Part shown: positions 58,224 to 64,000 of the stretch, in pieces
Numbering within the stretch: the stretch's first letter is position 1
Layout of the letters: each line of letters begins with the position of its first letter
Source: an uncultured Gammaproteobacteria bacterium
Lineage (GTDB): Bacteria > Pseudomonadota > Gammaproteobacteria > Steroidobacterales > GCA-2729495
Length of the DNA stretch: 64,000 nucleotides
Direction: 5' to 3'
NCBI GenBank assembly: GCA_937921935.1
Contig: CAKZWQ010000002.1
Span: 58,853 to 122,852, forward strand
The notes under the pieces: generated by a model
What the model was told of the DNA's origin: nothing
What the model saw: only the letters and a program-made list of their open reading frames with translations
Databases searched by the model: none
Translations under genes and position numbers: made by a program

Positions 58224-58534
58224 TCGGTTTCTCCCGCCGGCGCAATGCACCCCGAGGGATGCGGAACTCTTCGCATGGCGCACTTAGCGGCGCTTTGCCA
58301 CGCGCCTTCATGTTTGAGTGCATAAGCAGTGTTGTTATTGTCAGGCTTGCCGATTGACGGAACGGTGACGGGCTTCCCGAAACCATTTCATCAACATAAC
58401 GCGCAGGTCTGCAGGTGTAGGCATTAAGGTGAATGCCAAAGGGGCTCTGCTTTGCGGCCAATTTGAGGGGATAGTGTTTGGTTTCCTGTCTTCAGGCTCT
58501 TCTCTTTCGACATGGCCTGAAGGATTATGTCGAT

Positions 58535-61435
58535 ATGAACCTGGAAGTTATCCGGCAGGAGCTGCCCCCTGCGTTGAAGCAACTGGTCGATGACTGGTCC
58601 CGCGACAATGCCGGCAAGGAATGCCTGGTCGGCGATGCGCAGTACCTGAGGTCTCTGCGCAGGGTCCTTGCCTGCAGCAGTTACCTGGGCGATATCCTCG
58701 CGCGCTATCCCGATGCGCTGAGCGAGTTACGAAGGGACGGGCGGCTGGAGAGATCTTTGGACCCGGGGGAACTGGGCCATGTCTTCGACGCCCGGATTTC
58801 TGCCGGACTGACGGAAGTGCAGTGCGCGCAGCACTTGCGTTATCTGCGCCACCGGGAACTGCTGCGCATCGTCTGGCGTGACATCAATGGTTTGGCCGAC
58901 GTCCCTGAAACTCTGGCGGATTTGTCCGCGCTCGCTGATGCGGCTATCTGCAGCGCACTGGCCTGGTCGCAATCTTCCCTTGCTCAAACCTACGGCACGC
59001 CTCGGCTGGAAAATGGTGCAGCAGCGGAATTTATGATTCTGGGTATGGGCAAGCTCGGCGGGCGGGAACTGAACTTCTCCTCGGACGTGGACCTGGTCTT
59101 TCTTTATACCGATAAAGGCGAAACGGACGGACGGCGCCAGGTCAGTAACGAGCAGTATTTTCGTAGCCTGGCGCAGAGCCTGATTAACCTGTTGTCCAGG
59201 CAGACTCCGGATGGTTTCGTTTACCGGGTGGATGTCCGCCTGCGGCCGTTCGGCGAAAGTGGTCCGCTGGCCGTCAGTTTGCCGGCCTTCGAGTCATACC
59301 TGCTGACTCATGGCCGGGACTGGGAACGCTATGCCTACGTCAAGGCGCGTGTGATCAACCCGTGTAGCGCGACAGCCGAACTGGAGGAACAGATTCTCCG
59401 TCCCTTCGTCTATCGTCGCTATCTCGACTATGGCGTGTTCGCGTCTTTGCGCGAGATGAAAGGCATGATTGAAGCGGAGGGACAGCGGCGTGAATACAGC
59501 GCCAATCTGAAGCTTGGGCCTGGTGGCATTCGCGAGATCGAATTCATTGCCCAGTCTCTGCAGCTCGTGCGCGGTGGTCCGGTGACCGAGCTGCGCGATC
59601 GGCAGTTGCAACGGGTGTTGCCCAAGCTCGTTCGTCACCAGTGTTTGCCGGCCGAGGTGGCGGATGAACTGACGACGGCCTACCGTTTCCTGCGCCGGGC
59701 TGAGAATTTCCTGCAAGCCATTGAGGATCGTCAGACCCACGATTTACCTGCGAACGAACTGGACCGCACCCGTCTGGCTTTCGCCATGGATGCGCCGGAC
59801 TGGGAGACTTTCCTGGCCAGTTGCACGGCGCAGCGAGCTTGCGTGGCCGGACATTTTCGCAATATCGTTTTCAGAACCGGGGACCAGGCTGACAGCGAGC
59901 CTGAAATAGTCGCCCTGGCCGGAGTCTGGTCAGGCGCGGCGGATGAGGCCGGCCAGACAGCAAGCCTTCAGAACGCTGGCTTTGATGACGGCGAGGCAGT
60001 GCGACGGTCCGTGCAGGCGCTGCGCGACAGTGGCCTGTACCGGCGGATGGATGAAAGCGGGCGACAGCGGATGGATGCCCTGATGCCCAAGCTGATGCAA
60101 GCAGCAGGTCGGCAGGCAAAACCGGATCGTGCCCTGGCCGGTGCCTTACAGGTCGTTGAGGCCATTGGACGGCGATCGGCCTATTTTGCCTTGTTGAACG
60201 AAAATCCTTCAGCTCTTCAGCGGTTGACCAAGTTGTGCGGGCTGGGCGATTTTCTGGTGGGACAACTTGCTGCCCATCCGCTACTACTGGACGAATTGCT
60301 GGATCAACGGGTGTTCAACGATCCGCCGGCGCGCGCTGAGCTGGTTGATGACCTGCAATCCCGCCTGCAGGCGGCGGGTACTGATGATGAGCGACGCTAC
60401 TACGCCCTGGTGAACTTCCAGCAGGCGGCAACCTTCCGGGTTGCCGTGGCTGATCTGAGTGGGGCGCTGCCTTTGATGAAGGTGAGCGATCGCCTCACCG
60501 ATATTGCCGAGCTGGTCCTGGGCGCAGCGCTGGACATTGCCTGGAGCGAGCTAGTGGCAAAACACGGTGAGCCTCATTGTGAGGTGGCCGGGCAGTTACG
60601 CCCGGCGCGTTTTGCCATTGTCGCCTATGGCAAGCTGGGCGGGCTTGAGCTCGGTTATGGCTCTGACCTGGATGTGGTTTTTCTGCATGACTCGGCCGGG
60701 AAGGCCGAGCAGACCAATGGCGAACGGCCACTGGACAATGCCGTGTTCTTTGCCCGGCTGACTCGACGCATCATCAGTATGCTGACCTTATCCACCACCT
60801 CGGGCCAGCTCTATGAGGTGGATACCCGGCTTCGGCCGTCGGGCCGGTCCGGCATGCTGGTGTCCAGCCTGACGGCCTTTGATCGCTATCAACGCGAAGA
60901 TGCCTGGACCTGGGAACACCAGGCCTTATTAAGAAGTCGCCCCGTAGCCGGTGACCCGGCCGTTTGTGCGGCCTTCGAGGATTTGCGTCGCCTGGCGCTG
61001 ACTCAGTATGTGAAACGCGACAGCTTGCGCGAGGAAGTCACCGACATGCGCGCGAAGATGCGAGCAGAGCTGTCCCGGGGAGACGCGCAGCTTTTCGATC
61101 TGAAGCAGGACGAAGGCGGCATCGCCGACATCGAGTTCCTGGTCCAGTACCTGGTGTTACAGCACGCGGCAGATTGCCCCGACCTGCTGGAGTTCTCCGA
61201 CAATATCCGCCAGCTAGAGGCCTTAGCCCGCCATGGCCTGCTGGACAAGGCCGATGAAAAATTACTGGCGGATGCTTATCGTGATTACCGCAAGCGCACG
61301 CATCGTCGTGCACTGGGGGGTGATCAGAGCCTCGCGCCGCGTACCGAGGTGGCTGAGCAGGCCGATCGTGTCGTGATGATCTGGCAGCGCGTGTTCGGGA
61401 AACCAGAAGCCAGGATCAGCTTGCCGACGATCTGA
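58535..61435 (+). CDS. glnE: Glutamine synthetase adenylyltransferase/deadenylase GlnE
   Basis: ILGMGKLGGRELNFSSDVDLVFLY; VAYGKLGGLELGYGSDLDVVFLHD; VDTRLRPSGRSGMLVSSL. Confidence 0.95.
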   Translation: MNLEVIRQELPPALKQLVDDWSRDNAGKECLVGDAQYLRSLRRVLACSSYLGDILARYPDALSELRRDGRLERSLDPGELGHVFDARISAGLTEVQCAQHLRYLRHRELLRIVWRDINGLADVPETLADLSALADAAICSALAWSQSSLAQTYGTPRLENGAAAEFMILGMGKLGGRELNFSSDVDLVFLYTDKGETDGRRQVSNEQYFRSLAQSLINLLSRQTPDGFVYRVDVRLRPFGESGPLAVSLPAFESYLLTHGRDWERYAYVKARVINPCSATAELEEQILRPFVYRRYLDYGVFASLREMKGMIEAEGQRREYSANLKLGPGGIREIEFIAQSLQLVRGGPVTELRDRQLQRVLPKLVRHQCLPAEVADELTTAYRFLRRAENFLQAIEDRQTHDLPANELDRTRLAFAMDAPDWETFLASCTAQRACVAGHFRNIVFRTGDQADSEPEIVALAGVWSGAADEAGQTASLQNAGFDDGEAVRRSVQALRDSGLYRRMDESGRQRMDALMPKLMQAAGRQAKPDRALAGALQVVEAIGRRSAYFALLNENPSALQRLTKLCGLGDFLVGQLAAHPLLLDELLDQRVFNDPPARAELVDDLQSRLQAAGTDDERRYYALVNFQQAATFRVAVADLSGALPLMKVSDRLTDIAELVLGAALDIAWSELVAKHGEPHCEVAGQLRPARFAIVAYGKLGGLELGYGSDLDVVFLHDSAGKAEQTNGERPLDNAVFFARLTRRIISMLTLSTTSGQLYEVDTRLRPSGRSGMLVSSLTAFDRYQREDAWTWEHQALLRSRPVAGDPAVCAAFEDLRRLALTQYVKRDSLREEVTDMRAKMRAELSRGDAQLFDLKQDEGGIADIEFLVQYLVLQHAADCPDLLEFSDNIRQLEALARHGLLDKADEKLLADAYRDYRKRTHRRALGGDQSLAPRTEVAEQADRVVMIWQRVFGKPEARISLPTI

Positions 61436-61497: not shown

Positions 61498-61953
61498 TTA
61501 CTGCCAGAGTGGCGGTTTGACCACCATGAAGTAGATGATCACAAAAACGCTGAGACTGATGCCGGCCCACCAGATCGTGAGTCGCCGTGCCAGTACCGCA
61601 AGTCGCGGGCTCTCCGGTTCATCCCTGGCGAGCCGAATCCAGCGTTTCATGAATGGGCCGAAAGCGATGCCCATTACCGTCAGCAAGATGGTGAGCACCA
61701 GGCTGGTAATGACCCAGGGCGTGTCGAGCGGCCACTGCCATAGCCACATTGTCACACCTGCGGTCACCGCGACGACGTAGGCCGGGATAGCCAGAAAATC
61801 ATCGATCTTTTTCACCAGGCGCAGGAGGTTTGCGCGGTTAGCAGGATCCCCGTTCGCGGAAAAAATCCAGAACAGGTGCGTCATGTTCGATCCGAAGCCG
61901 ATGCATGCACCCAGCACATGCAGCCACTTAATTGCGTAATAGAGGTCAGGCAC
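61498..61953 (-). CDS. DUF2269-type integral membrane protein
   Basis: YYAIKWLHVLGACIGFGSNMTHLFWIFSA; four predicted TM segments. Confidence 0.75.
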   Translation of the reverse strand: MPDLYYAIKWLHVLGACIGFGSNMTHLFWIFSANGDPANRANLLRLVKKIDDFLAIPAYVVAVTAGVTMWLWQWPLDTPWVITSLVLTILLTVMGIAFGPFMKRWIRLARDEPESPRLAVLARRLTIWWAGISLSVFVIIYFMVVKPPLWQ

Positions 61954-62048
61954 CGAATCTACCCTTGTGGTCCAATATTTATCAGTATGCCGATGTCAAA
62001 TAGCGGCGTTATAGGTAGTTTCCACTAATGTCTCCCGCTTCGGCTAGG

Positions 62049-62297
62049 TTAGGCGAAATTACCGATGAATTGCAGCACCAGTCCACTCGCGAGCATGAGG
62101 AAACCCGTTATATCCGTGCGGGCCTGGTTCCGCATGGTTGCAACAAGCTTTGGAACTTCCCGAAAGCCCCAAATATCAAAGAACAGATTGCTGATCTTCT
62201 GGTGTATAGAAATAGACGCCAACGCAATGTACAGGGCACCGACAATTTCGAGCAACAGGCCTAACTGCCCCACGTACCAGAATAATTCGCTGTTCAT
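62049..62297 (-). CDS. Small membrane protein of unknown function
   Basis: MNSELFWYVGQLGLLLEIVGALYIALASISIHQKISNLFF...TGFLMLASGLVLQFIGNFA. Confidence 0.55.
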   Translation of the reverse strand: MNSELFWYVGQLGLLLEIVGALYIALASISIHQKISNLFFDIWGFREVPKLVATMRNQARTDITGFLMLASGLVLQFIGNFA

Positions 62298-62481
62298 GAT
62301 GGCTTTCGCTTTGGGTTGATATGGATTGGAAAGATCTGGAATCTTTGTCGATTTTCGGCCCGCTGTGAAGCTTCCCTGGATTTCCGCTTCTGTCCAAAAG
62401 TGGTGGTTCACGCTACCGAGGCGAACCCACGCGCCTCAATCTATACTCTGACCCCGTCTTAGCAGAAACCAGATCAGGCCC

Positions 62482-62697
62482 ATGTCCGCTGACACCTCCC
62501 AAAAACCGGCTTCGGTGCCGCCCAACGCCGAAAACCTTTACCAGGTCGGGCCGTCCGATCTGCCGCTTTCTTGCCCCATGCCCGGCATGACGGTCTGGAA
62601 CTCTCATCCCCGGGTCTACCTGCCTATTGAAAAGACAGGCTCGGCTAAATGCCCCTATTGTGGTGCAGAATTCCAGCTGCAGGGCAAAGGCGACTGA
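62482..62697 (+). CDS. Zinc-finger (CHCC/NDUFS6-like) domain protein
   Basis: LPLSCPMPGMTVWNSHPRVYLPIEKTGSAKCPYCGAEFQLQG. Confidence 0.85.
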   Translation: MSADTSQKPASVPPNAENLYQVGPSDLPLSCPMPGMTVWNSHPRVYLPIEKTGSAKCPYCGAEFQLQGKGD

Positions 62698-62782: not shown

Positions 62783-62924
62783 ATGAGGCGTGTCACCCTG
62801 TTTCTGGCCACCAATGTGGCCGTCGTGATGTGGTTTTCGCGCTGATGCCGGCGGATTGAAACGCCTGTTCATGTCCCATCCACCCTTGGAAGAGCGCAGC
62901 GCGGCTCTGCCCAACGCCGCCTGA
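62783..62924 (+). pseudogene. htpX: Collapsed remnant of the htpX membrane metalloprotease gene
   Basis: Frame 1 MRRVTLFLATNVAV + VMWFSR*; shifted frame FRADAGG + GLKRLFMSHPPLEERSAALPNAA*: HtpX N-terminus, the VMWFSR/EFRADxxG segment and the C-terminal SHPPLEER segment in correct order, about 85% of the gene missing. Confidence 0.75.
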
Positions 62925-62935
62925 TCGCCCGCTTG

Positions 62936-63985
62936 TCAGGAGCTCTCTTCGAGGTCGGGATCTTCGGCCGGTCCGACGTCATCGTTTTCGGCCTCTTCTT
63001 CTAGCACCCGTTCTTCGCCCATTTCCGTCTGTCCCCACTCGGCGGTGGCTACCAGGGGATCCGGCTGGCCATCGGTTTCGATGCCAATGCGGAAAGCCGC
63101 AAAGCCAGGCATCACCACCTGGTTCAGCGCCATGCCCAGAACACGTCCGCGATTACTCGCATAGATCAGGTTCTGGTCATTGGTAATCGGATCCGTGACG
63201 GTGCCCAGTACGTCACCGGAATCCACCAGCTGACCCAGCCGAACCACGGAAAACAGAATGCCGCCATAGTCGGCCCGTACCCAGGTGGATTCGTAGAACA
63301 CGGGCTCGGGTTGCCGCAGTAACTGGACGCGGCGAATCATGTCTGTGGCACTCAGGAGTGCAAACACGCCGTCGACGCCCTCGCTGACCTTGCTGGACTG
63401 CAGTCGCAGGGGTTCGCCGGCTTCCAGGGTAACGGCCGGAATGCCCGCGTCCGTCGCGGCCCGGCGGAGGGTGCCGGGCGCGCCTTCATTATGTAGCACC
63501 ACCATGCCACCGAAGCCCTCGGTCATCTCCCGCACGCGCCGGTAACGCAGGTCAGCGCGTAACTGCGGCAGATTGGTCCGATAGAAAGACCCCGTGTGCA
63601 GATCCACCAGGACATCGCAGCGGCGAATGATTTCCTCAAACAGGGAATAAGCAATTCGGGCGGCTGAACTGCCCTCGGGGTTACCAGGAAAGTAACGATT
63701 CAGATCTCGTCGGTCCGGCAGATAGCGTGAGCCGCGCCTGAAGCCCTGCAGATTGACGATAGGGACGCCGATCACCGCGCCGCTAAGTTCTTCGGGTTCC
63801 AGTTCATGCAGGATGCGCCGAACCATTTCGATGCCATTAAGCTCGTCGCCATGAATGGCCGCCGTGAGACAAAGGACCGGGCCTTCTCGCTTGCCATTGA
63901 CCACCAGCACCGGTGTTGCTGTGGTGATGCCTTCAAAAACTTCGCTGGCGGACCAGGTCAGGCGGGCAGCTTCGCCGGGTGGCAC
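62936..63985 (-). CDS. Succinylglutamate desuccinylase/aspartoacylase-family protein (probably 5'-truncated by window edge)
   Basis: PVLCLTAAIHGDELNGIEMVRRIL; DVLVDLHTGSFYRTNLPQLRADL; open frame continues to the window edge (..LLGKTVPPGEAARL). Confidence 0.85.
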   Translation of the reverse strand: MPPGEAARLTWSASEVFEGITTATPVLVVNGKREGPVLCLTAAIHGDELNGIEMVRRILHELEPEELSGAVIGVPIVNLQGFRRGSRYLPDRRDLNRYFPGNPEGSSAARIAYSLFEEIIRRCDVLVDLHTGSFYRTNLPQLRADLRYRRVREMTEGFGGMVVLHNEGAPGTLRRAATDAGIPAVTLEAGEPLRLQSSKVSEGVDGVFALLSATDMIRRVQLLRQPEPVFYESTWVRADYGGILFSVVRLGQLVDSGDVLGTVTDPITNDQNLIYASNRGRVLGMALNQVVMPGFAAFRIGIETDGQPDPLVATAEWGQTEMGEERVLEEEAENDDVGPAEDPDLEESS

Positions 63986-64000
63986 GGTTTTGCCCAGGAG

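Follow-up and report, generated by a model that had tools for sequence, protein, structure and literature searches.

An htpX pseudogene at its inherited locus and an intact htpX of foreign affinity elsewhere in a gammaproteobacterial draft genome

Introduction

When the gene for HtpX, a membrane M48 zinc protease of quality control, lies in ruins at its conserved place, has the organism lost the protease? This question is raised by a 142-bp stretch (62783-62924) of the window, by which we mean the whole 64-kb stretch of DNA that was analysed and which forms the end of contig C2 in a metagenome-type gammaproteobacterial draft assembly of 79 contigs and 3.04 Mb. Below we describe the remnant, its native locus and the deletions that shaped it, and then an intact htpX found on another contig (C57) of the same assembly, the phylogeny of which bears on how the remnant may have arisen.

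Results

The remnant of htpX

Four pieces of htpX can be read on the plus strand of this stretch, all of them where an earlier note, made from the sequence, had placed the fragments of what it took for a fossil of the gene. Piece 1 (62783-62824) represents native codons 1-14 (MRRVTLFLATNVAV; native nt 1-42); aligned in register with native genes, 27-31 of its 42 nt agree. Piece 2 (62825-62845; native nt 643-660) encodes VMWFSR (GTGATGTGGTTTTCGCGC), followed by TGA in the same frame, and 15-17 of its 18 nt are identical to native genes at nt 643. Piece 3 (62835-62855; native nt 670-689) encodes FRADAGG in a shifted frame and shares 17 of 20 nt at native nt 670 with the closest sister species (G001) and 18 of 20 with G010, while piece 4 (62850-62924; native nt ~809 to the stop) encodes the C-terminal GGLKRLFMSHPPLEERSAALPNAA together with the stop codon. 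Pieces 2 and 3 overlap within their common repeat TTTCGCGC (62835-62842).

Four HtpX segments from five relatives were scanned, ungapped and in six frames, against the whole 64-kb window, and the top match of each segment was the fossil: the N-terminal 14 aa at 62783 (45-55, with the runner-up at 30 or less), VMWFSR at 62825, FRADxGG at 62835, and the C-terminal 20 aa at 62850 (59-89, against 30 or less elsewhere). A chance resemblance to HtpX was also considered and was ruled out by these six-frame scans; that the four pieces are collinear, on one strand and in the syntenic place likewise argues that the resemblance did not arise by chance. The sole NCBIfam match of the 20-aa N-terminal piece alone was the HtpX model (E = 0.013, profile positions 1-19). 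A DNA search found the fossil stretch once in its own genome, and neither a second fossil copy nor any other native-type remnant was detected there. The coding capacity of the window htpX has been destroyed, with 142 nt left, the zinc-motif (HEXXH) region and the set of transmembrane regions gone, and the frame broken at the second join. The stretch 62783-62924 is an htpX pseudogene, the remnant of the inherited gene.

The native locus in related genomes

The earlier note had proposed comparing the locus in sister strains, and the comparison bears out its reading. In G001, glnE, a zinc-finger gene, an intact 882-bp htpX and a convergent aspartoacylase-like gene follow one another in the order seen here. 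The corresponding genes in the window are a glnE-like gene (58478-61435, plus strand; 69% identical to G001; 2.6-2.9 kb upstream, in the same orientation), which provides the left context and a phylogenetic marker; a gene for a 71-aa zinc-finger protein (62482-62697, plus strand), the left neighbour of htpX, which is 64-69% identical to the protein after glnE in G001, G002, and G003 and adjoins htpX in G001; and a convergent aspartoacylase/succinylglutamate desuccinylase-like gene (62936-64000, minus strand), the right neighbour, which is 82% identical to G001 and has protein-family matches. Intact htpX adjoins this same aspartoacylase-like gene in all four congeners (G001-G004) and in several further family members. 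When genome contigs were scanned with the aspartoacylase-like protein, htpX was found beside the gene at 12 of 80 loci, none of which belongs to Woeseiaceae, so the absence of htpX from Woeseiaceae loci does not represent decay. A locus with a 77% identical aspartoacylase-like gene (L119) was considered as a further case of decay and set aside as uninformative, as it carries neither htpX nor a fragment of it.

Several other features of the region were observed. The space between glnE and the zinc-finger gene holds two small minus-strand genes at 61498-62411 (151- and 120-aa frames). Neither was matched at the glnE / zinc-finger / aspartoacylase-like loci in sister species, in which glnE is directly followed by the zinc-finger gene. 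In G002 (contig C10, locus L202, 5440-11890), ~6.5 kb of other genes separate the zinc-finger gene from htpX, the two being adjacent in G001 and here. Contig C2 ends at 64000 inside the aspartoacylase-like gene, the 5' (N-terminal) part of which is on contig C37; the end of C2 (63860-64000) overlaps the end of C37, in reverse complement, by exactly 141 bp, which is the mark of a k=141 assembly. C37 also carries the transglycosylase gene that adjoins the native locus in G001 (84% identical).

Deletions and joins

The pieces are collinear with the native 882-bp gene and the three joins claimed in the earlier note are all present, with ~600, 17, and ~123 nt missing. These lengths add up, as 740 nt taken from 882 leaves the 142 nt that are present. 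The ~600-nt and ~123-nt deletions are in frame and the 17-nt one is not. The breakpoints of this 17-nt deletion fall in the repeat TTTCGCGC, and two copies of TTTCGCG, 17 bp apart, survive in the native htpX of G001, in favour of an origin by slippage or by recombination between short direct repeats. Microhomology had been suggested for every join and is supported for this second one; at joins 1 and 3 at most a few bp could be common to both flanks, and microhomology there is conjectural.

An intact htpX of foreign affinity on contig C57

The decayed locus had been taken to mean loss of an envelope-stress protease, and a search of the rest of the genome had been recommended with that claim. 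The search speaks against it. Searching this genome with Pfam M48 gave eight places, and one of them, C57:1025-1927, encodes a full-length HtpX of 301 aa with the zinc motif HEISH, which scores 433.5 bits against an HtpX equivalog cut-off of 245 (NCBIfam PRK05457 / NF003965). Two other M48 places were scanned: one encodes an M48 protein of the BepA/LoiP type, and the other is part of a larger M48 protein and does not reach the HtpX cut-offs.

The C57 protein is 88% identical to HtpX of G017, which belongs to another genus, and 82% identical to those of G007 and G044, but only 64% identical to the native protein of G001; within the genus, in which the congeners have one full HtpX each, native HtpX proteins are 71-76% identical to that of G001. 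In the tree, the C57 HtpX is sister to that of G017 (99/89), followed by those of the two g4 genomes (95/88). Forcing it together with the natives of the genus costs 138 log-likelihood units and is rejected (p-AU = 2.3e-9), as is forcing it with G001 alone (p = 2.5e-6). This phylogeny conflicts with that of the organism as given by glnE, in which this genome joins G001 (100/99) and all five members of the genus group together (97/98). DNA similarity between C57 and G017 is confined to 997-1902 (the gene and 28 bp upstream) and then stops. On C57, htpX adjoins a short-chain dehydrogenase gene, and the same dehydrogenase gene in G001 and G002 (86% and 80% DNA identity) is followed by other genes and not by htpX. 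Judged from these sequence comparisons, the C57 HtpX is of foreign affinity, coming apparently from the lineage of another genus.

Descent of the fossil from a C57-type gene was examined as well and rejected. The N-terminal piece matches the C57 gene at 21 of 42 nt and out of register, in contrast to its in-register match with native genes, a contrast of register that is weak on its own because the C57 gene is one codon shorter at its start; the fossil locus is the native htpX locus, which counts against such descent.

Does C57 belong to this genome? Three of the genes on it, for the dehydrogenase, a flavin protein, and a GST, have 86, 85, and 82% DNA identity, respectively, to those of G001, indicating that C57 is very likely part of this organism's genome. 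The dehydrogenase and flavin-protein genes are ~7 kb apart in G002, as they are on C57. Tetranucleotide usage of C57 correlates at 0.90-0.94 with stretches of C2 and at 0.81-0.88 with relatives, and GC contents are 61.0% (C57) and 61.9% (window). No overlap of the C57 start with other contigs of the genome was found. An origin of C57 from a co-occurring congener is possible but unlikely.

HtpX in relatives

Our HtpX search set comprised 60 relatives. No HtpX-type match was found in G014, G020, G029, G030, G040, and G056, the completeness of which is estimated at 96-99%; where anything matched in these genomes, it was a larger M48 protein, and weakly so. Loss of HtpX would thus not be startling, contrary to the earlier note, which had regarded it as unusual. 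G013 (G013:C171:2844-3296 and G013:C15:85674-86546) contains a full HtpX and also a second, partial HtpX-like frame of 153 aa, which shares 68% identity with residues 143-294 of the C57 protein and is perhaps another duplicate or decaying copy. Genus g7 is split, G010 (locus L055) having the aspartoacylase-linked HtpX lineage and G017 (locus L041) the C57-like lineage, hinting at further HtpX exchanges in the family. One might go on to imagine that HtpX of the family repeatedly switches between the aspartoacylase-linked lineage and a second, mobile one, and that the exchange here reflects selection on the protease and not neutral redundancy; we regard this as doubtful.

Discussion

Probable xenologous displacement and alternative explanations

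Xenologous (orthologous) gene displacement by horizontal transfer is a known evolutionary process, and we consider it the probable origin of the pseudogene, at a probability of roughly 0.8: an htpX would have been imported and the redundant resident deleted piecemeal. The intact gene may have been acquired from another genus of the family, by a transfer of perhaps little more than the gene itself, and would have come to lie beside the short-chain dehydrogenase gene on C57. The resident gene, flanked by the zinc-finger and aspartoacylase-like genes, would thereby have turned redundant, and the three deletions, one of them frameshifting between the TTTCGCGC repeats and two in frame, would have reduced it to a non-coding remnant. 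HtpX activity would now be supplied by the imported copy, which presumably functions. Since none of the five genomes of the genus carries both intact copies (native and C57-type), we infer, rather than read, that import came before loss.

It is also conceivable that an ancestor lost its native htpX by deletion with nothing to replace it and that the foreign gene was gained afterwards. The data date neither import nor deletion, and the relatives without HtpX, some of them near complete, imply that loss without replacement is tolerated. However, the remnant is legible and its pieces resemble native genes to about the degree that native genes resemble one another, so the loss looks recent, and redundancy is the simpler account of it; we therefore think this order of events unlikely. 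Should C57 have been misbinned from a co-occurring relative, the organism would be without HtpX, as the earlier note supposed. The assembly is indeed a draft of many contigs and the start of C57 overlaps none of them, but the composition of C57 fits the window better than it fits any relative, the closest matches of its other genes are in the sister species, and contamination is estimated at 0.23%, which together make misbinning improbable.

The decay itself might be only apparent, if an intact gene had been collapsed in assembly or were present in most of the population. The exact overlap of C2 and C37 does point to a k-mer assembler working on a mixed sample, yet such an artefact would have to account for three separate joins at which the largest known repeat is 7-8 bp, far under any assembly k-mer, and the second htpX explains the decay independently, so we hold this to be highly improbable. 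That the remnant encodes a functional short membrane peptide (MRRVTLFLATNVAVVMWFSR) can hardly be credited, in spite of an ATG-started 20-codon frame with a hydrophobic core, as this frame is exactly what the deletions leave of two htpX pieces, together with a frameshift, and no comparable peptide was found in relatives.

Comparison with known systems

Both the fossil pieces and the C57 gene are HtpX (NCBIfam PRK05457 / NF003965, Pfam M48), but the window copy is destroyed and the intact copy is of another lineage and in another place. As in xenologous displacement, the genome carries a foreign homologue from the same family and has lost the resident copy; the difference is that the resident is still in place as a readable fossil, so that a replacement would not have proceeded by homologous recombination at the locus. 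A search of the literature for htpX displacements described before returned nothing specific. Pseudomonas aeruginosa clone C has gained an additional htpX horizontally and has kept its core-genome htpX; the extra copy lies on TLPQC-1, an island of stress genes with mobile elements at its flanks (PMC7685784). By contrast, no such island was seen on C57, and the core copy has been deleted here.

The locus looks like an unusually legible new example of an ordinary, known process. It may offer a clean snapshot of gene replacement, with the foreign copy at a new place, the resident deleted stepwise, and its remnant still readable, and it illustrates that finding a pseudogene in a conserved place is no proof of a lost function before the entire genome has been searched.
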